Of a stretch of DNA of 47,111 bases, positions 1-40,234 are shown piece by piece; the stretch's first letter is position 1, and each line of letters begins with the position of its first letter. The translations under genes and the position numbers were made by a program. Source of the stretch: an uncultured Bacilli bacterium (lineage in GTDB: Bacteria; Bacillota_I; Bacilli_A; RF39; UBA660). The notes beneath the pieces are model-generated. The model searched no databases and was not told the origin of the DNA. It was given only the letters and a program-made list of their open reading frames with translations. The stretch spans positions 1 through 47,111 of the forward strand of contig CALVQY010000006.1 in the NCBI GenBank assembly GCA_944358355.1, given 5' to 3'.

Positions 1-273
1 AAATCTAATTGCATCCCATAACTTTGGAGCAAGTTGCCATTCATCAATTAACCTAGGAGTATCTCCAGTTAATAATAAAGCAGGATTAATGTCTGCAAGA
101 GTTAAATTTTGTTCTTGATTCGCTGGATCAGCCATATATAATACACTTTTTGAAATTTGCTCTGCTGTAGTTGTTTTCCCACACCATTTAGGTCCTTCTA
201 TCAAAACAGCACCTTTACCTTTTAATTTCCTTTCTAATATTTCATCAGCAATTCTTCTTTTATATTTTTCCAT
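1..273 (-). CDS. DUF4143-type AAA ATPase, N-terminal part only
   Basis: An open frame of 91 codons begins with ATG at 271-273, preceded by a GGAGA ribosome binding site, and runs off the left window edge. The translation starts MEKYKRRIADEIL and has a Walker A loop GPKWCGKT around residues 29-36, an acidic ADIN stretch, and a Walker B-like RLIDEWQ followed by APKLWDAIR. This order is the signature of the AAA_14/DUF4143 ATPase family, proteins of about 400 residues with a C-terminal nuclease-like domain of unclear role, often scattered by transfer. Only the ATPase half is visible, so the C-terminal domain is unconfirmed. It has its own promoter and does not belong to the whiA operon, whose last gene ends at 406. 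Confidence 0.8.
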   Translation of the reverse strand, partial: MEKYKRRIADEILERKLKGKGAVLIEGPKWCGKTTTAEQISKSVLYMADPANQEQNLTLADINPALLLTGDTPRLIDEWQLAPKLWDAIRF

Positions 274-294
274 TTTAAGGTCTCCTTTGAGATA

Positions 295-323
295 ATTTTA
301 ACATTAAATAATACCTTTTTCAA
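295..323 (-). promoter_or_regulatory. sigma-A-type promoter of the DUF4143 ATPase gene
   Basis: Reading the minus strand, TTGAAA (318-323) and TAAAAT (295-300) are separated by exactly 17 bases, and the gene start follows about 20 bases downstream. The -35 box is touched by the first, degenerate copy of the repeats at 323-385. Confidence 0.65.
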
Positions 324-385
324 TATTTTTCAGCAATTTGTAAACTTTTTATTCGGTAATTTATGAGTTTTTTATTCGGTAATTT
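323..385. repeat. Phased 17-bp direct repeats upstream of the ATPase gene
   Basis: Two identical 17-base copies of TTTTTATTCGGTAATTT sit at 346-362 and 369-385. A third degenerate copy (12 of 17 bases) fits at 323-339 in the same 23-bp register and touches the -35 box. Regular spacing of long copies across a promoter is what cooperative binding sites look like. The binding protein is unknown; the adjacent ATPase is one candidate. Confidence 0.65.
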
Positions 386-405
386 GTATTTTTAAAGGTT
401 GCTGT

Positions 406-1317
406 TTAATTATCTAAAAATTTAAGTGCTAACTCTTTAATCTTCCTAAATCTGTGATTAAGTCCTGACTTAGTAATTTTATTACCAGTCTCTAAACTAA
501 TAATCTCACTTAATTCTTTTAATGAAGCTTCTTGATATTTCTTACGATATTCTAAAGCTTCTTTAGTCTTATCATCAAGTAATTCTATTGCCATATTATC
601 TTCAAGTATTTTAATATAATTTAATTGATCCATCGCTGTTTGCAAAACTCTATCCATATTAGCTTGTTCACAGTTATTAATTCTATTAGTCTTATTCTTA
701 GTATCTCTATATACTCTTATTTCTTCATAATATAGTACTGCTTTACTACAACCAATTATCTTTAAAAAATCACTAATTTTATCCGCTTCTTTAATATATA
801 GCATGAATCCTTTATCACGGCTTAAAACCTTAACATTCAAAGAATAGTTATTAAGAAGCTTCTGAACAAATACAGCTTCCTCACTTTTTTCTATTAAAAA
901 CTCCAAATGATATCTACTAGTTTTAGGGTCATTAATACTACCACTACTTAAGAAAACACCTCTTAAATAACCCCTAACTTCATCATCAGACTCTACTAAA
1001 TAACTAGGAACAACTTCACTATCTAAAGAGAAAGTCTCTTTAATAAAGTTATCTCCATCTACAATAACTAAGGCTTTAAGTTTATTTTTACTAAAATTAT
1101 TATTATCTAAAAGCTCTTCACTATAAGATACCTCTTCATAACTATCAAGTAATTCTTTTAAATATGTTATAACAGCATCATTCTCACTACTAATAGTAAT
1201 AGAATCTTTAATTATTTGATAATTATTACGAAAAAAGCCTGAGATTAAAGCTATTTTAGCAGTCTCAGTTATTTTTAATGTAGTTATTTCATTTTTTACT
1301 GTACCAGTAAAAGACAT
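406..1317 (-). CDS. whiA: DNA-binding protein WhiA
   Basis: 303 residues, the usual WhiA length. The N-terminal two-thirds resembles the LAGLIDADG-endonuclease-derived domain (VRGYLRGVFLSSGSINDP is the typical core), followed by TNRINNCEQANMDR and a C-terminal helix-turn-helix (LSEIISLETGNKITKSGLNHRFRKI). WhiA is a conserved Gram-positive regulator linked to sporulation in actinomycetes and to cell division in Bacillus. The gene is the last of a trxB-yvcK-whiA operon, 12 bases after yvcK. No HPr-like crh gene follows, and I see no clear terminator after the stop. Confidence 0.95.
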   Translation of the reverse strand: MSFTGTVKNEITTLKITETAKIALISGFFRNNYQIIKDSITISSENDAVITYLKELLDSYEEVSYSEELLDNNNFSKNKLKALVIVDGDNFIKETFSLDSEVVPSYLVESDDEVRGYLRGVFLSSGSINDPKTSRYHLEFLIEKSEEAVFVQKLLNNYSLNVKVLSRDKGFMLYIKEADKISDFLKIIGCSKAVLYYEEIRVYRDTKNKTNRINNCEQANMDRVLQTAMDQLNYIKILEDNMAIELLDDKTKEALEYRKKYQEASLKELSEIISLETGNKITKSGLNHRFRKIKELALKFLDN

Positions 1318-1329
1318 AAGACATTCCCC

Positions 1330-2283
1330 CTATTTCATTAAGTAAGAAAATATTAAAGAACTAAGCTTCTGGCTATGATGCTTAAGAGTCCCATCAGCAA
1401 TAGTAAGTAAATCTGCTTCAATAAATTCTGCATCTAAAGTAGATAAAACAGGATAATCTATTTTAACTGGATCTTTTCTTTCTTCAGTAGCATACCTTAA
1501 AGCCATCTCTTCACTTATTTTAGAGTTTGATGCAATAACAGCATCAAGCTTATGTTTACCTAAATAACTATTAATAAGTTTAGCATGGTCACTTACAGTA
1601 AAGTCATCTGTCTCTCCAGGTTGTGTTACGATATTACATAAATACATAATAGGAGCTTTCGTGTTATCAAGACACTCTATAACTTCTGTAGAAATAAGAT
1701 GAGGAAATATACTAGTATAAAGGCTTCCCATACTGAAAATGATTAAGTCTGCTTCTCTAATAGCAGTTTTAACTTCGTCTAAAATTTTTGGTTGTTCTTT
1801 ATAAAAAAGCTTTTTTATTTTTTTCTCACTCTTAGTAATAGAAGCTTCTCCTTCTACAATACTACCATCCATCATCTCTGCCATAAGAGTAATATTAGCA
1901 TCTTCTGTTAGCGGTAATACTTTATTTTTAATATCTAAAAGCGTACAAAGTTCATTAATAGATTCTTTTAAACTTCCTGTAATATTTAAAAGAGAAATAA
2001 GTATTAAATTACCTAAAGCATGACCATCTAAGTCACTTGTTGTATTAAAACGGTATTCTAACATTTCTTTAATATTATCACTAGTAGAAGATAAACTACT
2101 AAGTACTTTTCTAACATCACCAACAGCAGGAGCGTGGAACTCTTCTCTTAATTTACCTGTACTTCTTCCATTATCAGACACCGTAATAACAGCTGTTATA
2201 TCAAGAGGAAAATCTTTAAGTCCTTTAAGTAAATAAGAAAGACCTGTTCCACCACCAAATACTACTATTTTCTTATTATTCAC
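1330..2283 (-). CDS. yvcK: YvcK/GlmR family UDP-GlcNAc-binding regulator
   Basis: 317 residues of the UPF0052 (CofD-like) family. The N-terminal VVFGGGTGLSYLLKGLK loop and TVSDNGRSTGKLR are the diagnostic nucleotide-sugar-binding motifs, with GDVRKVLSSLS and the later FSMGSLYTSIFPHLI also conserved. In Bacillus the protein is needed for growth on gluconeogenic carbon and stimulates cell-wall precursor synthesis through GlmS. It lies 6 bases after trxB and 12 bases before whiA. In Bacillus rapZ (yvcJ) sits immediately upstream; here it is absent. Confidence 0.93.
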   Translation of the reverse strand: MNNKKIVVFGGGTGLSYLLKGLKDFPLDITAVITVSDNGRSTGKLREEFHAPAVGDVRKVLSSLSSTSDNIKEMLEYRFNTTSDLDGHALGNLILISLLNITGSLKESINELCTLLDIKNKVLPLTEDANITLMAEMMDGSIVEGEASITKSEKKIKKLFYKEQPKILDEVKTAIREADLIIFSMGSLYTSIFPHLISTEVIECLDNTKAPIMYLCNIVTQPGETDDFTVSDHAKLINSYLGKHKLDAVIASNSKISEEMALRYATEERKDPVKIDYPVLSTLDAEFIEADLLTIADGTLKHHSQKLSSLIFSYLMK

Positions 2284-2289
2284 ACCAAC

Positions 2290-3168
2290 TCATCTCCTTG
2301 AAATCTCTAAAGCAACTTTAGCAGCTTCTCCCATGGCAATAACTATTTGATAGTCAAACTTATTTAAAGCATCCCCTACAGCATAAACTCCATCTATAGA
2401 AGTCATTAAATTATCATCTGTCTTAACATAACCTTTATCATCTAAAATACCTAAAGATTCTAAAAAGTTAGCATTAGGAATTTGCCCAATATATATGAAG
2501 ACACCATCAGTAATTATATTATTACCATCTTTTGTCTTAATAGTTATTCTTTCATTTTTGGAAAAACTATCTACTTCTCCCCTAACAAAAGAAATATTAT
2601 CTACTTTTTTAATCATATCTTGTAAATAAGCTTTCGCTCTAAATTCATTACGATATAAAACAGTAACAGTTGATGCAAGTTTACTCAAGTATATTGCCCC
2701 TTCAAAGGCTGCATCACTTGCTCCCACAACAACTACATCTTTATTCTTATATAAAGCTCCATCACAAACAGCACAGTAACTTATTCCTTTAGTTCTTAAT
2801 TCATCTTCACCTTTAACACCAAGTAGTTTAGGCTTACGACCAGTTGCAATTATCACGTAATCACAGATATACTCATCTTTACTAGTAATAACCCTTTTCT
2901 CTTTATCTATCTTAATCTCTTTAACTTCTTCATATTTAACAGGAACACCCAAATCAGTAATCTGTTTTAACATCTTTAAAGCTAAGTCACTTCCACTAAT
3001 AGACTCATATGACGGAAAATTCATAATATTACCATTATCAACTATCTGTCCACCTGGCATAGACTTCTCTAAAATGATACAGTCTATTCCTGCTCTATTT
3101 AAGTAAAGCCCAGCAGTCATCCCTGCCACACCACAGCCTATTATAACCACTTTATATTTATTATTCAT
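2290..3168 (-). CDS. trxB: Thioredoxin reductase-like flavoprotein
   Basis: 292 residues with an N-terminal FAD loop (IIGCGVAGMTAGLYL), the redox-active CAVC of ISYCAVCDGALY, and a C-terminal FAD motif DGVYAVGDAL. These place it among low-molecular-weight thioredoxin reductases, which pass electrons to thioredoxin. The pyridine-nucleotide domain is unusual: the normal GGGDSA is VGASDAAFEG, and the NADPH-phosphate motif HRRxxxR reads LYRNEFR. It may use NADH or another donor such as ferredoxin. It is the first gene of the trxB-yvcK-whiA group, with a GGAG site upstream of the ATG. Confidence 0.88.
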   Translation of the reverse strand: MNNKYKVVIIGCGVAGMTAGLYLNRAGIDCIILEKSMPGGQIVDNGNIMNFPSYESISGSDLALKMLKQITDLGVPVKYEEVKEIKIDKEKRVITSKDEYICDYVIIATGRKPKLLGVKGEDELRTKGISYCAVCDGALYKNKDVVVVGASDAAFEGAIYLSKLASTVTVLYRNEFRAKAYLQDMIKKVDNISFVRGEVDSFSKNERITIKTKDGNNIITDGVFIYIGQIPNANFLESLGILDDKGYVKTDDNLMTSIDGVYAVGDALNKFDYQIVIAMGEAAKVALEISRR

Positions 3169-3186
3169 AAAGACTCTCCTTAATCA

Positions 3187-4338
3187 TCAAATTCTCCTAC
3201 CAGAATATTTTTCTTTCTCTTCATCTAATTCTTCCCTAGCTTTTAAAATATTAGGATTCAAACTAGTTTCTGAAACACTTTCAAGTCTTTCATTAAATTC
3301 TTTATTTACTATATCTTCTAAATATTGTTCCCTAGCACGTTCAAAATCCCATTCATCATCAAAAGCTGATGGATCATTTATTGGATTAGCACTATGATAC
3401 TTCCATGCTGCTTGCAATCCCATCATATCTAAAGCAATTCTTATTTCATTAGCCCTAATCTGCCAAAACTCATTTTTACCTGTAGCAATTTTTTCTAAAC
3501 AATCATTAACTATTTGTTCAATATAGTTATCAAACTCTCTACACTCATCCTCATTCAATGTAAGATTTCCTACAATAGTGCCATTATTTTCAAAGAAATC
3601 TAAAACATCATCAGAATAAGTTCTTAAAACCCATCTCCTAAATCTAGAAAAATTAGGAACAACTTTCTCCATAGCTCTAAAAGTTTTCTGTTTCATTTTA
3701 TAATACAATACTGTAGATTCCTCTTTCTGCTCTTCAGTAGCTGTTCGATTGTATTTTCCAACTCTAGGTATGTTATAAATAAAACTTGCCATCTTGTCCA
3801 AACGAATAACATCACTTATAGAATCAGAATTAAGCGGAGTAGTATCATACCCTAGTAAATCAATAAAAGTAAAACCTGCACCATCTTTTGAATTATCATA
3901 AAATATATTTTTCTCCTTTAGTTCTAAGCCCATATTAAAAAGTTCACACAAATCACTTACACATTTTTCATAAACAGTATCTGGTGCTTCAAGTAACAAT
4001 TCCTGTACTTTCAATTGTTTAGATGGTTCATTATAATATTTATTACTTATATTAAAACTTGCTCCCTTAGCCTTTTCCTGAAGTACATAACATATATTAT
4101 CTTTTTCATCAATTACTCTTTTAATTGCCAAATGATATGGAGTATTAACACCCATATCTCTTTTCTTATTAGCAGCTTCTGCTATTAATTCTTCATTTTT
4201 TCTAGCAATAGCATTATATTTAACTGGTATTTTATATTTAACTAATACTACATTACCAAAATCAAAGCATTCACTGCCACCATCGCTAACATTTTTCATC
4301 TTAAAAGATGCTTTAATATATTCATCTATATTATTCAT
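3187..4338 (-). CDS. Uncharacterised protein with a protein-kinase-like fold signature
   Basis: 383 residues from the ATG at 4336-4338, chosen because an AGAGG site lies 9 bases upstream; an earlier ATG at 4347 directly abuts that site. No family is recognised with certainty. The beginning (FDFGNVVLVKYKIPV, then RKNEELIAEAANKKRDMG and YVLQEKAKGASF) reads like the N-lobe of a kinase-like enzyme with a hinge. LKEKNIFYDN followed by FTFIDLLGYD resembles a reduced catalytic loop and metal-binding Asp. The C-terminal 150 residues are highly charged and helical. It overlaps the end of lgt by 8 bases, so it is co-transcribed with it. A degenerate kinase or phosphotransferase is an inference. Confidence 0.55.
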   Translation of the reverse strand: MNNIDEYIKASFKMKNVSDGGSECFDFGNVVLVKYKIPVKYNAIARKNEELIAEAANKKRDMGVNTPYHLAIKRVIDEKDNICYVLQEKAKGASFNISNKYYNEPSKQLKVQELLLEAPDTVYEKCVSDLCELFNMGLELKEKNIFYDNSKDGAGFTFIDLLGYDTTPLNSDSISDVIRLDKMASFIYNIPRVGKYNRTATEEQKEESTVLYYKMKQKTFRAMEKVVPNFSRFRRWVLRTYSDDVLDFFENNGTIVGNLTLNEDECREFDNYIEQIVNDCLEKIATGKNEFWQIRANEIRIALDMMGLQAAWKYHSANPINDPSAFDDEWDFERAREQYLEDIVNKEFNERLESVSETSLNPNILKAREELDEEKEKYSGRRI

Positions 4339-5125
4339 AAAACACATCCTCTCTATACAATTTCTTATTTTTTCTCAAGAATACAAAATAAATACCTACA
4401 ATAAACAAGACTACAGATACAAGCTGGGCAACTCTAATAGAACCTAACATTAAACTATCAAGTCTCATACCTTCTATTATAAACCTAATAAAAGAATACC
4501 ACATCATATAAAATCCCATAAGTTGTCCTGTTTTAAGATTCTTATAAAACTTTCTAATTACTAAAAGAATTATAAAGCCAATTACATTCCAAACTGACTC
4601 AAAGAAAAATGTTGGCATATAGTAATCTCCATTAATATACATACCTCTAATAATAAACTCTGGTATATATAAACTCTTTAAATAACCATAAGATGTCACA
4701 TATCCATATGCTTCACTATTAAAGAAGTTACCCCATCTACCTATCGCTTGTCCTATAATAAGACCTACTACTAATATATCTAAAAGTTTTAAAAGATTTA
4801 ATTTATGCTTCTTACTATAATACAAAAGATATAAAAGCCCTCCAAGTATTCCTCCATGAATAGCAAGTCCTCCATGCCATATATAAAGTATTTCTATAGG
4901 ATTAGACAAGTAATATGGTAGATTAAATAAAACATAATAAAGTCTCGCTCCTAAAAAAGCAAAGATAATAGTATAGAAAAACATATCAAAAAGCTCTTCT
5001 TTATTAATCTTTTCTTTTCTAAGTTCTAAAAAAACACAAACTCCCCCTACAATTACTCCTAAAAGAATAAAAATAGAATAGTAATATATTTTTATAAAGC
5101 CTAAGTCTAAAAGCACTCTATCCAT
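4331..5125 (-). CDS. lgt: Prolipoprotein diacylglyceryl transferase
   Basis: 264 residues starting at ATG 5123-5125 (MDRVLLDLGFIKIYYYSI), which has an AAAGG site 9 bases upstream; the longer frame adds 12 residues with no homology. It is a seven-helix membrane enzyme that moves diacylglycerol from phosphatidylglycerol to the lipobox cysteine of prelipoproteins. The diagnostic segments are HGGLAIHGGILGG and the conserved Lgt signature IIGQAIGRWGNFFNSEAYG. The first codons overlap the stop of the upstream membrane-protein gene by 8 bases (ATGGATAG). Bacillus has hprK directly before lgt; here it is missing. Confidence 0.94.
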   Translation of the reverse strand: MDRVLLDLGFIKIYYYSIFILLGVIVGGVCVFLELRKEKINKEELFDMFFYTIIFAFLGARLYYVLFNLPYYLSNPIEILYIWHGGLAIHGGILGGLLYLLYYSKKHKLNLLKLLDILVVGLIIGQAIGRWGNFFNSEAYGYVTSYGYLKSLYIPEFIIRGMYINGDYYMPTFFFESVWNVIGFIILLVIRKFYKNLKTGQLMGFYMMWYSFIRFIIEGMRLDSLMLGSIRVAQLVSVVLFIVGIYFVFLRKNKKLYREDVFYE

Positions 5126-5546
5126 GATGTTTAACCTTTCTAATAATTGGCTTAATAACAAATTCTTCTATTAAAACATTAACTACAGAAATTAATATTG
5201 AAATAGCAAGAGCCACCCAAAAGTCCATTAGATTAAAGTATTTACCAAGTATCCAATCTGCAAGTTTTAAAATAAATAAGTTTATAAATGGATAAAAAAG
5301 CCCAAGAGTTAAACCTGTTACTGGTATTGTTAATCTAACTAACAAAGGTTTAATTGTCTGATTTAGAATATAAATTATAAATGATGCAAGTATTGAAAAA
5401 AGAACAGGATGATTAGGATCTATATAAAAGGATTTAAAAAATCTCGAAACTAAAAAGAAGACTATAGAGTAACTTGCAAAATACAAAAGCCATTCTAAAA
5501 ATCTATTTAATCTGATTTTTTCTTTTGTCTTTACAATTATCTTCAT
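5118..5546 (-). CDS. YvlD/phage-holin-4 superfamily membrane protein
   Basis: 142 residues with four predicted membrane helices (around residues 18-37, 50-65, 75-95 and 107-128). NQTIKPLLVRLTIPVTGLTLGLFYPFINLFIL is split over helices two and three and matches the pattern of the PF04020/YvlD family, small membrane proteins without a defined biochemical role. In Bacillus yvlD also lies between uvrA and lgt, so position supports the assignment. An excellent GGAGGAG site lies upstream. Function unknown. Confidence 0.75.
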   Translation of the reverse strand: MKIIVKTKEKIRLNRFLEWLLYFASYSIVFFLVSRFFKSFYIDPNHPVLFSILASFIIYILNQTIKPLLVRLTIPVTGLTLGLFYPFINLFILKLADWILGKYFNLMDFWVALAISILISVVNVLIEEFVIKPIIRKVKHHG

Positions 5547-5562
5547 AGTCTCCTCCTATAAT

Positions 5563-8370
5563 TTATAACATTTTCTTTAAGAATAGTCCTGTATAAGATT
5601 CTTTAACTTTACTAACTTCTTCTGGAGTACCAGTAGCAACTACACTACCTCCTCCATCTCCTCCTTCAGGACCTAAATCAATAATATAGTCAGCGCTGGC
5701 TATAACATCAAGATTATGCTCTATAACAAGTACTGTATCTTTATTATCGACTATTTTCTGTAAAATTGCAAGTAGCTTCTTAATATCAGCAGAATGTAAT
5801 CCCGTTGTTGGTTCATCTAAAACATATAAAGTTTTACCAGTTGGCTTTTTCTGTAATTCTTTAGCAAGTTTAACTCTCTCTGCTTCCCCACCAGAAAGTG
5901 TTGGAGCACTTTGTCCTAGTTTAATGTAACCTAATCCTACATCTTCCAATACTTGAAGTTTATTTTTAATCTTTGGAACATTACTAAAGAATTCCAAAGC
6001 TTCACTAACTCTCATATCTAAGACATCTGCAATATTCTTCTCTTTATAGTAAATGTTTAAAGTCTCTCTATTATACCTTGTACCATGACAAACTTCACAA
6101 GGAACATAAACATCTGGTAAGAAATGCATCTCTATTTTCTTAACTCCATCTCCCCTGCAAGCTTCACATCTACCACCTTTTACATTAAAGGAAAATCTAT
6201 TCTTCTCAAACCCATACATCTTCGCTTCTTTAGTATTAGTGAAAAGCTCTCTAATATCATCAAATACCCCTGTATATGTTGCAGGGTTACTACGAGGAGT
6301 TCTTCCAATTGGTGACTGTGATATATCAACAAGTTTATCAATATTATTAAGTCCTAATATTTTATCATGCCTACCAGGCTTAACTTTGGATTTATATAAA
6401 GTACTAGAAGCCGCTTTAACAAGTATCTCATTAATTAAACTACTCTTACCACTACCACTAACACCAGTTACTAGGGTTAATGTTCCAAGAGGAATTTTAA
6501 CATCTATATTTTTTAAATTGTTCTCCTTAGCACCTTTAATAGTTATAAACTTGCCAGTACCTTTTCTTCTAGTTTTTGGTATTTCAATACACTCTTTTCC
6601 ACTTAAATAACGTCCCGTAATACTATCATCACACTTCATTACTTCTTCCGGTGTACCTGCTGCCACAATCCTACCACCATTTTCTCCTGCTTCTGGACCA
6701 ACATCTACTAAATAATCGGCAGCAAGCATTGTATCTGTATCATGTTCTACAACTATTAAAGTATTACCCAAGTCTCTCATCTCAAGTAATGAATGAATAA
6801 GTCTATCATTATCTCTTTGATGAAGTCCAATACTAGGTTCATCAAGAACATAAAGTACGCCTGTTAAGCGAGAACCTATCTGTGTAGCAAGTCTAATACG
6901 TTGTGCCTCTCCACCTGATAAAGTTCCTGCACTTCTTGCGAGAGTCAAATATTCAAGTCCTACATTTTTTAAGAAAGATAGTCGTGACTTTATTTCTTTT
7001 AGAATAAGGTCTGCAATTTGCATCTTCTCTTCACTAAGCTTTAATTTATCAAAGAAAGTAATAAGTTCTTTAACACTCATACATGTTACTTCATAAATAT
7101 TTTTCTTACCTACTTTAACAGATAAAACATTATCAGCAAGACGCGCTCCTCCACAAACTTCACAAGTCTGCTCTATCATAAACTTCTCTAACCAATCTCT
7201 AATCCAACCACTAGATGTTTCCATATAACGACGCTCTAGATTATTAATAATTCCTTCATAGTAATCTCTTTGATTAGTAGGATTACCACTCTTAGATTTA
7301 TAGTTAAAATGGATTAACTCATCACTTCCATATAAAATTAACTCTTTCTCTCTTTCCGTTAATTTCTTAAAAGGTTTACTAAGACTAATCTTATAATGTT
7401 TACACATACATTCTAATCTCTTAAAGTAAATACTATCAGTATCATCCCCAAGAGTAACAATTGCCCCTTCTTTTAAGGATTTATTCTTATCAGGAATAAC
7501 TAAATCAGGATCTATTTTTAATTTAATACCAAGTCCCTTACATTCAGGACATGCACCATATGGAGCATTAAAGCTAAATAGACGAGGTTCAAGTTCAGGT
7601 AGTGAAAAATCACAATATGGACAAGCAAAGTCTTCTGAGTAAACTACTTCGTTATCGCCAAGAAAATCTACCACTACTTTACCTTTACTAAGTTTAGTAG
7701 CAACCTCTAAAGACTCAAATAATCTACTTCTAATACCATCTTTTATAACAATTCTATCAACAATTACTTCGATATTAGACTTCTTATTTTTCTCTAAGTT
7801 AATCTCCTCAGTTAAATCATGCATCTCCCCATTTATTCTAACTCTAACAAATCCTTGCTTCCTTAAATCATCAAATAAATCTTTATGAGTACCTTTCTCC
7901 CCATGAACAACAGGAGCCATAATAACAAGCCTTGTTCCTTCTTCGCGTTCTAATATTTTATTAGTCATCTCTTCAATACTTTGACTAGTTATAGGAATAT
8001 TATGATTAGGACAATATGGAACACCTACTCTTGCAAATAAAAGACGCAAGTAATCATATATTTCTGTAACCGTACCAACAGTACTACGAGGATTCTTACT
8101 AGTAGTCTTCTGATCTATACTAATCGCAGGACTAAGCCCCTCTATAGAATCTACATCAGGCTTTTCTGTTCCCCCAAGAAATTGTCTAGCATAAGCAGAA
8201 AGACTCTCCACATATCTTCTTTGTCCTTCAGCATATATCGTATCAAAAGCAAGAGAAGATTTACCACTACCACTTACACCAGTCATTACAATTAATTTAT
8301 TTTTAGGTAATTCTATCGAAACATTCTTTAAATTATTTTCTCTAGCACCTTTAACTATTATTTTATCCAC
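5563..8370 (-). CDS. uvrA: UvrABC excinuclease subunit A
   Basis: 935 residues, normal for UvrA. The start is GTG at 8368-8370 giving [16 protein letters not shown]; an AAGGA site lies about 10 bases upstream, whereas an earlier GTG at 8379 lies on top of it. Two ABC-type ATPase halves are present, each with Walker [10 protein letters not shown], a signature ([24 protein letters not shown]) and DEP Walker B. Zinc modules with paired CxxC are seen near CPYCDF...CPEC and CEAC...CEVC. UvrA finds bulky DNA damage and loads UvrB. uvrB is not next to it here. It is the first gene after its own promoter at 8434-8462. Confidence 0.97.
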
Positions 8371-8433
8371 AAATACCACTTCCTTAAAACGTTATATATT
8401 ATAATACAAAATTACACTTTTTTCTACTACCAA

Positions 8434-8462
8434 AATATACCATAAGTATAGCATTTAGTCAA
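8434..8462 (-). promoter_or_regulatory. uvrA promoter
   Basis: Minus-strand TTGACT (8457-8462) and TATATT (8434-8439) with 17 bases between. It directs transcription into uvrA and the yvlD-like and lgt genes. I see no LexA-type (GAAC..GTTC) box. Confidence 0.65.
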
Positions 8463-8479
8463 ACAAATTTTCTATAGTA

Positions 8480-8519
8480 AAAAAATAATAAAAGTATAGA
8501 CTAAAATATAATCTATACT
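8480..8519 (-). terminator. Intrinsic terminator after the kinase-like membrane gene
   Basis: On the minus strand AGTATAGA (8493-8500 and its complement 8512-8519) forms an 8-bp stem with an 11-base loop, followed by TTTATTATTTTTTT. It ends the rel-downstream transcription unit ahead of uvrA. Confidence 0.7.
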
Positions 8520-8520
8520 C

Positions 8521-9213
8521 TTATTTAGATCCTAACAAGAAAGCTATTATAGGTATTAAAAGACTACTAGCAATTATAACAAAAGCTAAAGCATAATTAG
8601 TTACAAATGCAGCTATATTATCTTTATTATCTTCATTAGGTAATTTCATTGGTATAATCTTATCATCATCGTCATAATGTCCTGTACTCTTAACATAACT
8701 TCTACCTTTACTACTACCATCTTCTTCCAAACTTTTTGACAATTTATTAATTTCCTGACTATTTTTAGTATTTAAATAATCAGTCAAATAAAAATATCCT
8801 CTATTAACTAAAACTCTTTGATAATAATTAACTAAGTTCTCAGGTATAAATATTTTGAATTGTAAAAAATTTTCTTTTAAAAAATCAGGTCTTAAATAGT
8901 CCAAAGTACCAGATAGAAGTCCAACTTGAAGAAAAGCTAAATTATAAATATTATTGTTAATTTTATTAGTAACATCATTATCCATAACATCTAAACTATT
9001 AAAAATAACATAATCTTGATTTTTATTAGTGACACCAACAACTATATTCTTGGGATTAAAATTAGTAATATAATATCCTTTATTATGAATATTTTTCATT
9101 GTATAATCCATAACATAAAATAATCTCGAAAACTCATCATTATCATGATAAGATTCACAATACTTATAAAGAGTATCTTCATAAGGCATCCTAACTATCT
9201 CTCCCATAGGCAT
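8521..9213 (-). CDS. Tail-anchored, kinase-like protein of unknown function
   Basis: About 230 residues. The start is not settled: GTG at 9216, ATG at 9213 and ATG at 9207 are in frame and the site upstream is weak (GAAAG). LFYVMDYTMKNIHNKGYYITNFNPKNIVV imitates the kinase catalytic-loop region (LHxxGxxHGDLKPxNILV), but the essential His-x-Asp is replaced by NFN, so catalysis is unlikely. A charged linker (SSKGRSYVKSTGHYDDDD) leads to one strong membrane helix (about residues 207-226) at the very C-terminus. This resembles sporulation or stress-linked pseudokinases with membrane anchors, but I do not recognise the family. Confidence 0.5.
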   Translation of the reverse strand: MPMGEIVRMPYEDTLYKYCESYHDNDEFSRLFYVMDYTMKNIHNKGYYITNFNPKNIVVGVTNKNQDYVIFNSLDVMDNDVTNKINNNIYNLAFLQVGLLSGTLDYLRPDFLKENFLQFKIFIPENLVNYYQRVLVNRGYFYLTDYLNTKNSQEINKLSKSLEEDGSSKGRSYVKSTGHYDDDDKIIPMKLPNEDNKDNIAAFVTNYALAFVIIASSLLIPIIAFLLGSK

Positions 9214-35107: not shown

Positions 35108-35136
35108 ATTATATCAGAAGAAAAGAAAAAGTCTAA
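35108..35136 (-). promoter_or_regulatory. Candidate ksgA promoter
   Basis: Minus-strand TTAGAC (35131-35136) and TATAAT (35108-35113) with 17 bases between. It overlaps the terminator of the preceding membrane-protein gene. Confidence 0.45.
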
Positions 35137-35155
35137 ACTTTCTTTTGTTTAGACT
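35120..35155 (-). terminator. Terminator of the SipW/TasA-like operon
   Basis: Minus-strand AGTCTAAAC (35147-35155) with GTTTAGACT (35130-35138), loop of 8, then TTTTCTTTTC. It covers the stop codon of the 35133 gene and separates the surface cluster from ksgA. Confidence 0.8.
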
Positions 35156-35573
35156 CATCTCTTTCCTTAAACATAAAAAATATATTACCAACAATTAAAC
35201 CATATAACATAATTTTAATATATGAAATAAAATTATCAAAAAAGTTAAAATCAATGCCATAACCATATTTTTCATTCAAAACCATATTTTTATCAAAAAT
35301 AGCTCTATATCCTACAAATAAGATTGTAGATAATACTAAACAACAGGTAATATTATAAAATAAATTATTAGTAACTTGTTTTTGATTTAAAATAATATTA
35401 ATAACAAATATTATCAAAAGAAGTAAAAAAGGTATCAACTCAGGAATAATAGAAGTAAAGCTCTTTTCTAATCTAATATTCATTCTCATCATAACAAATA
35501 AACTGATAGCAAAAGATGCTATTAAAAGTAAGTATTTCAAACCATAAAATAAATAATTAAATATTTTCTTCAT
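35133..35573 (-). CDS. Unknown four-helix membrane protein in the SipW/TasA cluster
   Basis: 146 residues. Helices at about 8-27, 45-63, 72-92 and 115-137, basic tail KERDESKQKKV. No family recognised. It starts 2 bases after the 35576 gene, so it belongs to the sipW operon and may form part of a membrane complex serving the surface proteins. The ATG has a GGCT-type weak ribosome site, consistent with coupled translation. Confidence 0.6.
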   Translation of the reverse strand: MKKIFNYLFYGLKYLLLIASFAISLFVMMRMNIRLEKSFTSIIPELIPFLLLLIIFVINIILNQKQVTNNLFYNITCCLVLSTILFVGYRAIFDKNMVLNEKYGYGIDFNFFDNFISYIKIMLYGLIVGNIFFMFKERDESKQKKV

Positions 35574-35575
35574 TT

Positions 35576-36265
35576 CTAGCCTCCTACCACAACAGTTCTA
35601 TACCAATTAGAAACTTCAACTAACAAGTCAAGAGTCTGCTGATATTTATTTACTATTTCAAAATAACTATCATTAGTCAAATCAAAGAAATTAGATTTAT
35701 TAACATCAGTACTATAATAATAATGATCAGAATTTTCTATATTAGATTGTATATAGCCAACAGATTGTACTAAACTATTAACATTAAGATCTACATATGG
35801 CTTTATAATATTATAGTTTGGAAGAGTAGCTATAGTATCAGTATTAAACATTGACTTTATTTGCATAACAAGACAATCATTTAATACATTATTTCTAAAA
35901 TCACCCGTAAAATTATAAACATCTCTAATATCTATATTACTTTTAGAAAAGTAATTCATCATCTCATCACTTTCTACAATATTTACACATTCTTGTATTT
36001 TTATTTGCGAAGTATTTAAGCCATATATATTAAGATTACCTGTGTAACTGTTTTGACTATAAACAGAAATATTATTTTTAATAGTATTAATTTTCTGTTC
36101 TATAAGTTGTCTATTATCATTATTATAAGTTTCAACAGAAATAGTTTCTGATAACTCCTGCATATGATAAAAGTTAATAATTAATAAGAAAAAAGAAAGG
36201 CCAAATATTAAACCAGTAACAGTATAACCAATAATATTAGCATATTCTAATAGTATTTTCTTCAT
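35576..36265 (-). CDS. Unknown membrane-anchored protein in the SipW/TasA cluster
   Basis: 229 residues from ATG 36263-36265, with GGAGG 9 bases upstream; the longer frame adds 28 residues of the previous gene's tail. One N-terminal helix (VTGLIFGLSFFLLIINFYHM) follows KKILLEYANIIGYT, then an outside domain rich in Asn/Ser/Tyr and helices. A tail VVVGG. It resembles pilus-assembly or minor-pilin-like anchors, but no motif proves this. It lies 1 base after the 36267 stop, so it is translated with it. Confidence 0.6.
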   Translation of the reverse strand: MKKILLEYANIIGYTVTGLIFGLSFFLLIINFYHMQELSETISVETYNNDNRQLIEQKINTIKNNISVYSQNSYTGNLNIYGLNTSQIKIQECVNIVESDEMMNYFSKSNIDIRDVYNFTGDFRNNVLNDCLVMQIKSMFNTDTIATLPNYNIIKPYVDLNVNSLVQSVGYIQSNIENSDHYYYSTDVNKSNFFDLTNDSYFEIVNKYQQTLDLLVEVSNWYRTVVVGG

Positions 36266-36266
36266 A

Positions 36267-36806
36267 TCATATATCCTCCGTCTGTATTTTAACATTAAAA
36301 TGGTAATACTTATTTTGCCATTCTGTAATTTGAGCACTTTCACTAACATAAATTCTTAATTTATAGTTATTAACTTTATCAGGATTTATAACTCTAGTAT
36401 CTAAGATATTATTCTTAATATCTGTAAGCATTCCTTGTTTAATTACTTCTCCATTTAGTGATAACTGATACTCTAACTGACTTCTTGAAAGCAATTCTTT
36501 ATTAGAATAATTTGTATCATCACTTATAATACTATCCTCTAATAAAACATTATAAGTAGTATCACTATCACTAGTATTAGTAACTTTAAACTCATAAGGT
36601 GTTAAACTCTTAGCCGTATTAGCATCTAAAGGAATTAAACCACTCTCATCTATAGTATTATTTTCATCATCTAAATAAATATCTATAGAACTAACTGAAG
36701 TAATAGCAGAATCATTATAAAACAATCTATACCACATCAAAGAAGTAATTAAAATAAAAGCAAATAAAGCTATACCAGCAAGTACTAAAAGTAAAAAACG
36801 TTTCAT
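36267..36806 (-). CDS. Divergent TasA/camelysin-like surface protein
   Basis: 179 residues. A leader helix (RFLLLVLAGIALFAFILITS) is followed by a beta-rich part with DIYLDDENNTIDESGLIPLDANTAKSLTPYEF and the end NYKLRIYVSESAQITEWQNKYYHFNVKI. The pattern N...P.....K.L...F...V, then Y.LRMW-like, is shared with the three proteins at 37508, 38218 and 38940. It overlaps sipW by 4 bases (ATGA), so its export may depend on that peptidase. Family assignment is by pattern only. Confidence 0.55.
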   Translation of the reverse strand: MKRFLLLVLAGIALFAFILITSLMWYRLFYNDSAITSVSSIDIYLDDENNTIDESGLIPLDANTAKSLTPYEFKVTNTSDSDTTYNVLLEDSIISDDTNYSNKELLSRSQLEYQLSLNGEVIKQGMLTDIKNNILDTRVINPDKVNNYKLRIYVSESAQITEWQNKYYHFNVKIQTEDI

Positions 36807-37465
36807 TTTCTAAACCTCCTTTTTTTAGGTTCTTTTTTTATTTTTTCACTATACTCTCCTTCATTATCATTATTTTTTAAAGTTTTAACTAATTTAAATA
36901 TATCATAACCAATAATCATAATCGCTGGAACAACAATAATAGCAATCCAACCTAAAACAGAACTAAGATAATATTGAATATAACCAATTTTAGGAATTCT
37001 AAACAAAACTCTACCATAAATCTTATCAAAACTTATTCTAGAAGAATCCTGAGTATTATTATTATCACCTTTAGTAGTAAACAAATATTCACCACTACTT
37101 GTCTCTTCAATATCTACAATTCTATGTGTAACCAATACACCAGAATATCTATAATCAGTAGAGTTAAAAGTGATGATATCACCTTTCTTTAAATCTGTAG
37201 GTTCATCAACTCTCATTGTAACGACGACATCTAAAACATTGATTGCTGGAACCATACTAGGACTTACTATTGTATAAGCTGAAAATAAATCTTTTTTACT
37301 ATTATTGGCTTTAATATTATGCTGTTTATCTATAAAATTAATAATGAAAATTAAAAATACAATAATCATTATTAAACTTATAGAGTACATTAAAACAGTA
37401 GCAATAAAATGAACAACTTTTTTTGCTGTAGTTAACAACTCTTTGTAATTATCTTTTTTTATCAA
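36803..37465 (-). CDS. sipW: SipW-type (ER-like) signal peptidase I
   Basis: 220 residues. A membrane helix (about 19-42) precedes the catalytic Ser in TIVSPSMVPAINVLDVVV, then the His of LVTHRIVDI, where bacterial-type peptidases have Lys; the Ser-His pair is the SipW mark. KGDNNNTQDSSRI and GRVLFRIPKIGYIQYYL follow, and a second helix (WIAIIVVPAIMIIGYDI) anchors the C-terminus. In Bacillus SipW frees TasA and TapA for the biofilm fibre. Here it lies between paralogous TasA-like genes, so its clients are clear. Stop is TGA. Confidence 0.92.
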   Translation of the reverse strand: MIKKDNYKELLTTAKKVVHFIATVLMYSISLIMIIVFLIFIINFIDKQHNIKANNSKKDLFSAYTIVSPSMVPAINVLDVVVTMRVDEPTDLKKGDIITFNSTDYRYSGVLVTHRIVDIEETSSGEYLFTTKGDNNNTQDSSRISFDKIYGRVLFRIPKIGYIQYYLSSVLGWIAIIVVPAIMIIGYDIFKLVKTLKNNDNEGEYSEKIKKEPKKRRFRK

Positions 37466-37507
37466 GTTATCACCCTCTTTTTATCCATTGAATACAAAAA
37501 AGAATCT

Positions 37508-38137
37508 TTAAGATAAATCTATTTTAGCCTTTATAGATACCCTTACAGCAAAAGTTTTTTGAATATTATCTAATATTGCATCATCAGCTACCCACATTCT
37601 TAATCGATAATTAACAGTATCACTCTTAGAAAAAGAATCGCTATATAATAACATAGAACCAGCTTCAGTTCCTATATCAGTACTTTCTTTAAGAGGAATA
37701 AAATGTTTAGGCTCCATAACTTCCTCATAAGAATTATCTATCATTCTCTCTAAATATAATTTAACTTCATCATTAGAAAGTGTCGAACTAATATCTTTTT
37801 CTGCTGCTATCTCATAATTAGCAACAACATTACCTGAAATCTCAGCTTTAATAGAAAAATCAAAATAATAATTAGTATCTGTCAAAGCCTTACCTACTTC
37901 ATCATTAATAGGATAAGCATTCGTTATATTAATACCATTTGTATCTTCAGTATAATTCATATAAACATTGCCAGTACTAATAGTATTAATACTATCCTTT
38001 TCCTTAGTATAAGTAAAAGTAGCAACAGATACTCCAATAACAGCAACAATAAAAATAATAGATACTATAACAATGACAAACAATTTTCCGCTAGATTCTC
38101 TTTTTATTTTCTCCTCACTATAATTTCTATCGTCCAT
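37508..38137 (-). CDS. TasA/camelysin-like SipW-dependent surface protein 3
   Basis: 209 residues from ATG 38135-38137 (GGAGG 8 bases upstream). A helix ending VIGVSVATFTYTK is the SipW-type signal. Then ISTGNVYMNYTEDTNGINITNAYPINDEVGKALTD and the C-terminal YRLRMWVADDAI...VRVSIKAK form the repeat-free core. It is 42 bases before sipW and thus opens the operon, with its own promoter (38165-38193). Whether it forms fibres or is a camelysin-type protease is unknown. Confidence 0.75.
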   Translation of the reverse strand: MDDRNYSEEKIKRESSGKLFVIVIVSIIFIVAVIGVSVATFTYTKEKDSINTISTGNVYMNYTEDTNGINITNAYPINDEVGKALTDTNYYFDFSIKAEISGNVVANYEIAAEKDISSTLSNDEVKLYLERMIDNSYEEVMEPKHFIPLKESTDIGTEAGSMLLYSDSFSKSDTVNYRLRMWVADDAILDNIQKTFAVRVSIKAKIDLS

Positions 38138-38164
38138 ATAGCACTCCTCCAATATCTTAAAATA

Positions 38165-38193
38165 ATTGTAACACAGTAATTTTTTCAGGTAAA
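38165..38193 (-). promoter_or_regulatory. Promoter of TasA-like gene 3 and the sipW operon
   Basis: Minus-strand TTTACC (38188-38193) and TACAAT (38165-38170), 17 bases apart. Confidence 0.5.
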
Positions 38194-38219
38194 GAAAAAA
38201 GTGTAGAAAACTACACTTT
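38190..38219 (-). terminator. Terminator of TasA-like gene 2
   Basis: Minus-strand AAAGTGTAG (38211-38219) with CTACACTTT (38198-38206) around TTTT, then TTTCTTT. A perfect 9-bp stem. Confidence 0.85.
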
Positions 38220-38838
38220 AAGCAGCAACAGCACCATATACATTAACTCTTAATTTATAAGCCATTATTTCATCTTGTACAACATAGTCATCAGAAATCC
38301 ACATTCTTAAACGATAATTATGAGAAACAGTTTGATTAAAATTACCTGAAGCTAATAAATATTGACCATTAGGAGCAGAAGATACATGATTATTAGTAAT
38401 AGTTAAATCAGATATTTTCGTAGGTGCTAAAACTTGACGTTCGTTATTATCCATATCAGTCAAATAAACTTTAATAGATGAATCAGGTAAAGTACTATCA
38501 GATTCCTTAGTTGCGGTTATAGCATAATTAATTATTACATTACCTCCTAAAGTAGCACTAACTGTAAAATCAAAATATTGATCCTCATTATTTAATGTTT
38601 TTCCAATATCATCACTCATAGGATAAGCATTCTCTAAATTAATACCATTAGTATTTTCACTATAACTCATTGTCATAGTACCAGTAGTAACTTTATTAAT
38701 CTCTTCTCCAGTTTTACTATAAAATATTGCAGCAAAAGAAATTCCTAAAATAAGTACTATCAAAACAATCACTAACATTATTAAAATAATAATAGTTTTT
38801 AAATTATGATTAGTACTATTTTCATTATTTGTTTTCAT
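38218..38838 (-). CDS. TasA/camelysin-like SipW-dependent surface protein 2
   Basis: 206 residues. A long N-terminal helix ends ILGISFAAIFYSKTG; the mature core begins TTGTMTMSYSENTNGINLENAYPMSDDIGKTLNNEDQYF and ends SHNYRLRMWISDDYVV...LRVNVYGAVAA. Closely related to the proteins at 37508 and 38940 in spacing and motif. It has a promoter (38860-38888), a GAGGAGG site and its own strong terminator, so it is a single-gene unit whose level can be set apart from sipW. A fibre-subunit role is inferred. Confidence 0.75.
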   Translation of the reverse strand: MKTNNENSTNHNLKTIIILIMLVIVLIVLILGISFAAIFYSKTGEEINKVTTGTMTMSYSENTNGINLENAYPMSDDIGKTLNNEDQYFDFTVSATLGGNVIINYAITATKESDSTLPDSSIKVYLTDMDNNERQVLAPTKISDLTITNNHVSSAPNGQYLLASGNFNQTVSHNYRLRMWISDDYVVQDEIMAYKLRVNVYGAVAA

Positions 38839-38859
38839 AAGTTCCTCCTCTATAATAGA

Positions 38860-38888
38860 AATATATCATATCTAAAAAAGATAATCAA
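38860..38888 (-). promoter_or_regulatory. Promoter of TasA-like gene 2
   Basis: Minus-strand TTGATT (38883-38888) and TATATT (38860-38865), 17 bases apart. Confidence 0.55.
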
Positions 38889-38892
38889 GAAG

Positions 38893-38926
38893 GCAAAAGA
38901 AAAAGTGTCTGAGATTAGACACTTTT
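38893..38926 (-). terminator. Terminator of TasA-like gene 1
   Basis: Minus-strand AAAAGTGTCT (38917-38926) with AGACACTTTT (38901-38910), 6-base loop, then TCTTTTG. A 10-bp perfect stem. Confidence 0.8.
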
Positions 38927-38939
38927 AATTACCATAATT

Positions 38940-39554
38940 CTATTGAGCATCAGCAGCACCATATACATTAACTTTTAATGTATAAGTCTCAGATGACTGA
39001 CCTACTGAAAAATTATCAGCTACCCACATTCTTAAACGATAACTATTAGTAGTAGTAGCATCAAAAGTACCAGATTCTAATATATATTGACCGTCTGTAG
39101 CTCCAGAATCATCACTTGAAGTTTTAGGTAAACTACTTACAACAGTAGGTTCTAATATTTCAGTATCAGCAGACCCATTCATATTTGTTAAATAAACTTT
39201 AACATAATCATCAGTCAAACTAGTACCTGGTGTTGTAACAGCAGTAATAGCATAATTAATTGTAGTATCACCTGAACCACTAATAGTAGCAGTCACAGTA
39301 AAATCAAAAGTATTATTTTCTCCTTCCAAAGCCTTACCAGTTTCGTCATTCATAGGTAAAGCATTAGTTAAAGTAATACCATTTTGAGGCTCACTATAAC
39401 TCATGCTAATAGTACCAGTAGTAATTGTATTTGTCACTTGACCAGTTTTAGAAAATGAAAACGCTGCAAATGAAACACCTACCACAGCAACAACTAATAT
39501 TGCTACACCCAACACAGACAAAAGGACCTGTTTTGAATTATCTTCATTTTTCAT
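38940..39554 (-). CDS. TasA/camelysin-like SipW-dependent surface protein 1
   Basis: 204 residues. The signal helix ends VVGVSFAAFSFSKTG. The core has TTGTISMSYSEPQNGITLTNALPMNDETGKALEGE, Thr/Ser-rich strands, and NSYRLRMWVADNFS...YTLKVNVYGAADAQ at the end. It is the first of three paralogues. An AAGGAGG site precedes the ATG; two alternative -35/-10 pairs (TTGATG or TTGCTA with TATTAT or TATATT) lie at 39570-39605. The absence of introns of low-identity repeats within it suggests a globular fibre subunit rather than a repetitive adhesin. Confidence 0.75.
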   Translation of the reverse strand: MKNEDNSKQVLLSVLGVAILVVAVVGVSFAAFSFSKTGQVTNTITTGTISMSYSEPQNGITLTNALPMNDETGKALEGENNTFDFTVTATISGSGDTTINYAITAVTTPGTSLTDDYVKVYLTNMNGSADTEILEPTVVSSLPKTSSDDSGATDGQYILESGTFDATTTNSYRLRMWVADNFSVGQSSETYTLKVNVYGAADAQ

Positions 39555-39649: not shown

Positions 39650-40234
39650 TTACCATCCATATCTAATAATTTCAAATTTAACATTACTTGTAGTAAAACC
39701 TTCTAAATTAGATTGACTAGTAAAAAGCAAATCCATATGACTTCCATTAACCGCTCCTCCTCTATCCATTACAATAGCAAGAATAGGTTCACTATAAATA
39801 TTAATACCACTTATTCTTACAATACTACCACATGGAATATCTCTATCAGCAGCAACCACTCTAACTTTCCCATAAATTTGATCATCAAAATAAATATTAC
39901 CATTTTTAAAATTCTGCCTTGGAGGACAAGCACTATTTCCCGTACAACCTGGACAATCAGGACCATATGCTGTAAGACGACCATTAAATGCAACAGGACT
40001 ACTACTGGCAACACTAATCGCTTCATTAAATGACGTAAAGAATGGAGTTTCTTTTTTCTTTTCATATTCTTTAATTGAATTATATTTATTAACTATATGA
40101 ACTGCTTGCAAAGATTTAACACTATTTATATTAGAAGTTGTAATTACCTCTTTTGAATTACCAGACAATATAATAAAAACTAAACTAAATAAAATAACAA
40201 TCAATCCTAAATATTTTAAAAATTTAAATCCCAC
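39650..40234 (-). CDS. 3D-domain cell-wall protein (YabE/Rpf-like remnant)
   Basis: 194 residues starting with GTG 40232-40234 (GAGGT nine bases upstream). One N-terminal helix, a 60-residue linker, then the 3D domain (about 83-194): GRLTAYGPDC, the three key Asp in AADRDIP, AIVMDRGGAV and HMDLLF. These domains act as lytic transglycosylases, as in MltA and Bacillus YabE/YocH. Four Cys (CPGC...CPP) are unusual and may bind a metal or form disulfides. As in Bacillus it follows tatD (yabD). The DUF348 and G5 domains of YabE are missing. Confidence 0.88.
   Translation of the reverse strand: MGFKFLKYLGLIVILFSLVFIILSGNSKEVITTSNINSVKSLQAVHIVNKYNSIKEYEKKKETPFFTSFNEAISVASSSPVAFNGRLTAYGPDCPGCTGNSACPPRQNFKNGNIYFDDQIYGKVRVVAADRDIPCGSIVRISGINIYSEPILAIVMDRGGAVNGSHMDLLFTSQSNLEGFTTSNVKFEIIRYGW

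Follow-up and report, generated by a model that had tools for sequence, protein, structure and literature searches.

The DNA considered here is a stretch of 47,111 nucleotides, called the window below, on contig C6 of the genome of an uncultured Bacilli bacterium (1.50 Mb in 93 contigs). It carries a cluster of seven open reading frames (ORFs), all on the minus strand, that encode four TasA-like proteins (T1 to T4), a SipW-type signal peptidase and two membrane proteins (M1 and M2). Judged by M1, the nearest named relatives are Candidatus Onthousia species, together with uncultured Bacilli. The N-terminal domain of T1 to T3 recurs in proteins scattered over the genome, some of which are targets of diversity-generating retroelements. 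The cluster is laid out as follows.

38940..39554, minus strand: T1, TasA-like subunit of 204 amino acids, N-terminal helix with an SFA|AF site and one beta-domain (AlphaFold2 model, fold comparison)
38901..38926, minus strand: intrinsic terminator 3' of T1 (-10.7 kcal/mol for the stretch)
38218..38838, minus strand: T2, TasA-like subunit of 206 amino acids, 49% identical to T1 (ORF and alignment)
38198..38219, minus strand: intrinsic terminator 3' of T2 (-9.8 kcal/mol)
37508..38137, minus strand: T3, TasA-like subunit of 209 amino acids (ORF and alignment)
36803..37465, minus strand: SipW/Sec11-type signal peptidase of 220 amino acids, TTG start, invariant S70 and H114 (TIGR02228)
36267..36806, minus strand: T4, distant TasA-like homologue of 179 amino acids without an SxA site (hhalign)
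35576..36265, minus strand: M1, 229 amino acids, one N-terminal membrane helix and an all-helical ectodomain (no known family)
35133..35573, minus strand: M2, 146 amino acids, four predicted membrane helices (no known family)
35129..35156, minus strand: intrinsic terminator closing the SipW-T4-M1-M2 operon and overlapping the end of M2 (-12.5 kcal/mol)

Organization of the gene cluster

Four terminator-like sites were found against 0.8 expected, and three of them close T1, T2 and M2. None was found between T3 and the peptidase gene or elsewhere inside the stretch from T3 to M2. From the peptidase gene onwards, the genes overlap or almost touch. The original prediction, made from the letters of this DNA, had placed T4, the peptidase and the two membrane proteins in one operon closed by a terminator, and this arrangement agrees with it. 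It had also given T1 and T2 a promoter and a strong terminator each. The terminators are real, whereas promoter-like sites do not exceed chance (59, against 50.9 +/- 8.0 in shuffles), and because of this, separate promoters for T1 and T2 are rated only as plausible. The M1 ORF as first listed begins inside T4; its conserved start is at 36265. The start of T3 is most likely at 38137.

T1 to T4 and the resemblance to TasA

T2, T3 and T4 are 49%, 38% and 22% identical to T1, respectively. T1, T2 and T3 are paralogues, as had been claimed. Each begins with a helix, after which comes S-x-A-(A/T)-hydrophobic. The longer motif said to unite them is loose in T3 (NYTEDTNGINI), and the proposed common ending YRLRMW(V/I)ADD does not cover T1, which ends in YRLRMWVADN. 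T4, described as a fourth, distant relative, is a true homologue of T1 to T3, over its own whole length, in an hhalign comparison of profiles (probability 97.8%, E 9e-13). The SipW cut site in TasA is of the same kind and has phenylalanine at P2' (PMC10269814). An SxA-[ATIV] site is present in 42 of the 45 T1-type sequences compared; the 24 T4 sequences all lack it and carry TS-x-LWY there. Since this site is missing, T4 is probably an uncleaved, membrane-anchored base subunit.

The AlphaFold2 model of T1 has a pLDDT (predicted local distance difference test) of 85.4. Its beta-domain is confident, and it is weak at residues 33-36, right after the helix, where a donor strand would begin. The TasA fibre (8aur) ranks first among 999 re-aligned PDB chains, with 136 residues at a root-mean-square deviation of 4.1 and Z 6.8, a score at which chance likeness is not excluded, as values below 8 can reflect a common arrangement. 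With the same model, Foldseek places the TasA fibre at rank 6 (prob 0.96, E 9e-3), ahead of an archaeal bundling pilus at rank 7. A structure unlike TasA would have told against the original prediction; the predicted one lends it modest support.

The signal peptidase and the membrane proteins M1 and M2

The peptidase scores above the cut-off (95.3 bits against 51.85) for TIGR02228, the model of SipW/ER-type (endoplasmic reticulum-type) signal peptidase I, and falls under that of the Bacillus SipW model NF046067 (93.4 against 190 bits). Because S70 (SPSM) and H114 (THR) are invariant in 18 sequences and the best solved relatives are Sec11A/C, the enzyme is assigned, on sequence grounds, to the ER/SipW type. 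A second SipW-type locus lies on contig C34 (positions 1-9000; L055:160-6651). Its products are a 672-residue protein whose N-terminus resembles S24/S26 peptidases, the second SipW-type peptidase itself (189 residues) and a 407-residue protein with a SipW-like signal.

M1 has one hydrophobic segment and M2 has four. The ectodomain of M1 is all-helical, with invariant C93 and C131. Neither protein reaches a Pfam or NCBIfam cut-off. The fold relatives returned for M1 were only unrelated helical bundles (Z ~9-10.6, the chance range for helical models) and were rejected. The sub-cut-off Pfam and NCBIfam matches of T1-T4, M1 and M2 (FliL, synaptobrevin, COX4, SirB and others) were likewise set aside as chance.

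Conservation of the cluster

Candidatus Onthousia and its relatives, both congeners and sister genera, keep the gene order (TatD)-T1..T3-SipW-T4-M1-M2-RsmA. Across 30 congener loci, the order T2-T3-SipW-T4-M1-M2 is kept with few variations. With an M1 profile, SipW, M1 and M2 were found together in 38 public-genome loci, down to 29% identity. The linkage of the membrane genes to SipW, whose failure in relatives would have spoken against the original prediction, holds in every one of these loci that reaches far enough. On every contig that extends far enough, RsmA comes next after M2, except in L125, and T4 was not recognised in two loci (L118 and L123). The number of T1-type genes per cluster ranges from 0 to ~6. 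Because two loci (L119 and L124) keep SipW-T4-M1-M2 without T1-T3, these four genes probably form the core machinery, with the T1-type proteins as its cargo. In many congeners, a 3D-domain protein (39650-40234 in the window) precedes T1 and may be a cell-wall enzyme that belongs to this locus.

M1 is present in 35 of 100 relatives, in 5 genera, and is accompanied by SipW in all except G005, where it begins 471 bases from the contig end and no SipW is seen. In five congeners no SipW was found. Assembly gaps are the probable cause, since four also miss the neighbouring RsmA, along with M1, and in the fifth a contig ends near M1.

T-domain proteins scattered over the genome

A search of the genome with T1 found 20 places, 3 in the cluster and 17 elsewhere, and the cluster is therefore not self-contained, contrary to what had been supposed: about 17 further proteins carry the same N-terminal domain, and some of them are retroelement targets. 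Most of these T-domains make up the N-terminal ~200 residues of a longer open frame (450-690 amino acids). The C-terminal continuations include DUF285/BspA leucine-rich repeats, two copies of DUF6273 and a weak FGE-like match; PF19789 is present in the genome. In 35 congeners, a 45-member T profile found 3-36 copies per genome. The N-domains of the fusion proteins form a second subgroup that includes the retroelement targets, and they match the T profile at 99.7% (E 4.6e-27) over 172 columns. Hence, the whole domain of ~170 residues, beyond the signal alone, is common to the fusions and T1-T3. This subgroup is almost family-specific: it was found in 10 of 120 genomes drawn from the class, nine of them in this family.

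Since the cut site and the domain are shared, we infer that the SipW of the cluster also processes the scattered proteins. The same sharing has already weakened the reading of the cluster as a plain TasA/camelysin biofilm-matrix operon of the Bacillus or Clostridium kind, with unrelated retroelement targets that have only a signal-like N-terminus in common with it. SipW-linked fibre operons are indeed known (sipW-bsaABC of C. perfringens and CapP/TasA/CalY of B. cereus). However, a whole shared domain goes beyond what that reading allows, M1 and M2 belong to no known family, and PF12389 misses T1-T4, so we consider it improbable.

Two more DUF6273 proteins (L087:4417-6255 on C58 and L085:2003-3814 on C14) have a SipW-like signal with a different N-domain, and the frame on C58 is split into two ORFs. 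A T-domain ORF on C19 (L048:2382-2825) is cut to 147 amino acids and is probably a decayed copy.

Retroelements and their targets

Three reverse transcriptases exceed the cut-off in the genome (contigs C46, C36 and C8). The accessory protein bAvd lies beside two of them over its Pfam cut-off and is sub-cut-off beside the third, on C8. C46 carries a full set of reverse transcriptase, bAvd and a template/variable repeat pair. When its non-coding template is compared with the final ~114 bases of a T-type gene, 18 of 18 substitutions fall at a template A (hypergeometric P 2e-13). Pooled with four congener loci, the count is 67 of 73 (P 6e-38). These counts come from an unbiased aligner and carry the weight, since the C8 and C36 comparisons were made with one that favours A changes. 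Read with that bias, the C36 template pairs with the variable repeat in a T-type gene located on C30 (16 A, 8 other). The C8 template is split by a tyrosine recombinase trio; under the same bias, its downstream half differs from the first variable repeat by 7 A and 0 other changes, and changes in the other half are A-rich but less clean. That trio is RIT-like (L067:9458-12947), and a second one lies at 6146-9120. TnpB-like transposon fragments are found upstream of the target on C46 (L069:6574-7723). In all, at least three T-domain proteins of the genome are matched to retroelement templates. The C-termini of the other DUF6273 proteins are strongly divergent between paralogues.

The pairing recurs in the genus. 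bAvd occurs in 18 of 34 congeners against 0 of 24 genomes of other families, and all nine congener loci with a target in view have a T-type N-domain on it (L139, L140, L141, L143, L144, L145, L150, L151 and L154). Four of the nine gave adenine/other changes of 11/1, 9/2, 14/2 and 15/1. L140 and L139 were not counted (a short exact repeat, with no substitutions), L150 has a weak template, and no convincing one was found in L151. The first 500 residues are the same in the L144 and L145 targets, and most of the divergence after them falls in the variable repeat. In L143 (3846-6827), the reverse-transcriptase gene of the retroelement lies in pieces around another such gene, possibly a group II intron insertion. 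Genes adjoining the retroelement in two other genera of the family carry other N-domains (L152 and L153). The one in L153 has a signal-like helix and no match to any T profile. In the sister genus represented by L152 (528-2537), the product of the gene before Avd and the reverse transcriptase starts like a type IV pilin (GFTLIELL), contains GVRP in its C-terminus and is a possible pilin-linked target. As these N-domains differ, the pairing of T-domain and retroelement appears, as far as sampled, to be a feature of this genus.

In phages, too, retroelement targets with DUF6273 and a variable repeat are known (PMC10743442, PMC11792537), which raises the question of whether the proteins here are captured phage or prophage receptor-binding proteins instead of cell adhesins. 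We think this very improbable. Against it stand the N-terminal membrane helices of the targets, with their SxA sites, and a T domain specific to the host lineage. The neighbouring genes inspected look like ordinary chromosomal genes, among which no phage structural genes were recognised by eye, no search of a phage library having been made.

A proposed fibre-building hub and its alternatives

We somewhat favour the view that the cluster and the scattered T-domain proteins together constitute a TasA-like hub for fibre building and export that serves adhesins encoded genome-wide, some of them hypermutated. SipW would remove the N-terminal helix of T1-T3 after SxA, and the freed N-terminal strand may pass into the next subunit to build a fibre, as in TasA. 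T4, without a cut site, would remain in the membrane as base or initiator, while M1, with its helix and helical ectodomain, and M2, with its four helices, could act as an assembly platform or chaperone. The ~17 scattered proteins would take the same route and join the fibre or the surface as minor subunits, presenting adhesins at their C-termini (leucine-rich repeats, DUF6273 or another lectin-like fold) that may bind ligands. By rewriting the variable repeats of some adhesins, the retroelements would change the displayed set. A more specific version sees the fibre as a sortase-independent common chassis for family-specific lectin and leucine-rich-repeat adhesins, some rewritten by retroelements, with M1/M2 as a new assembly pair; we hold it more tentatively, at somewhat less than an even chance.

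Several points weigh against the hub. PF12389 (TasA/camelysin, Peptidase_M73) has no match in the genome at E <= 0.001 and none in T1-T4; one fusion protein reaches it only sub-cut-off (E 0.001-0.005). No Pfam or NCBIfam model assigns T1-T4 to TasA/camelysin, searches of solved structures with the T profile found neither TasA nor a relative, and the Z score of the TasA match lies under the level that excludes chance likeness. Because PF12389 is missed and the fold match is supportive without being decisive, we call the T proteins TasA-like, with modest confidence and without filing them as members of the family. The second SipW-type peptidase on C34 could process some of the scattered proteins. 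The fusion proteins may be single surface anchors, with a large C-terminus that blocks polymerisation. The fibre, the secretion and the cleavage are predictions from the genes.

Some of these points fit an alternative that we rate as less likely than the hub: the T-domains may be generic stalks, SipW-processed or membrane-tethered, with each protein standing alone on the surface. T1-T3 would then be short decoy or matrix proteins, and SipW, T4, M1 and M2 a module for secretion quality. Stalks would suit the facts that most T-domains here sit at the front of large single proteins, that the count of T1-type genes varies, down to zero in L119 and L124, and that the TasA fold match is modest. The separate strong terminators and the tandem short T1-type genes, by contrast, fit an abundant polymer subunit, and both fold and signal resemble a known polymer.

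If the hub exists, it joins SipW/TasA-type fibres with targeted hypermutation, which are unlinked in the literature searched, and would explain the large and changing set of surface binders in uncultured gut Bacilli with small genomes. It would also give a testable role to two unnamed families of membrane proteins, M1 and M2, and provide a display system with a single anchor domain for many adhesins.

Comparison with known systems

The cluster had been put forward as a good candidate for a new surface-assembly system, and it is better described as a variant of the SipW/TasA kind. TasA fibres are built by donor-strand exchange (PMC9674648), and TapA is the chaperone in the Bacillus subtilis system (PMC10151520). 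Like TapA-SipW-TasA of B. subtilis, the cluster has a dedicated ER-type SipW, subunits whose N-terminal helix ends in an A|(A/T)-hydrophobic site, and a predicted beta-rich domain with the TasA fibre as best re-aligned PDB match. Unlike it, the cluster gives no match to PF12389, it comes with 0-6 cluster subunits plus ~17 scattered fusions, and no test made here identifies T4, M1 or M2 as TapA, T4 also having no cut site.

In C. perfringens, BsaA is secreted in a SipW-dependent manner and polymerises (PMC7395162). The sipW-bsaABCRSD operon resembles the cluster in its SipW and in its small polymerising subunit (~23 kDa), which is accompanied there by accessory proteins. It differs in its two-component regulators, of which none were seen here, and, in the part of that report available, the operon showed neither leucine-rich-repeat or lectin fusions nor retroelements. 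The B. cereus CapP/TasA/CalY system (PMC13082335) is likewise a sortase-independent filament system with a chaperone-like partner; a difference is that M1 is all-helical.

The retroelements resemble those with surface-displayed targets in Legionella and Treponema (PMC8144416) in reverse transcriptase, Avd, template/variable repeat and adenine-specific changes, and in a target with an N-terminal membrane segment. In contrast to those, the targets here share their N-domain with the TasA-like subunits of a SipW-linked cluster. The DUF6273 targets of phages model as a C-type lectin fold (PMC10743442, PMC11792537). No paper was found that combines 'diversity-generating retroelement' with SipW or TasA, in a search that did not extend to subscription papers and preprints. 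According to a large survey, most cellular retroelement targets have an N-terminal membrane segment or a signal peptide (PMC8144416). Since surface display of targets is already known from that survey, the novelty here is the TasA-like domain that the cluster subunits share with retroelement targets.

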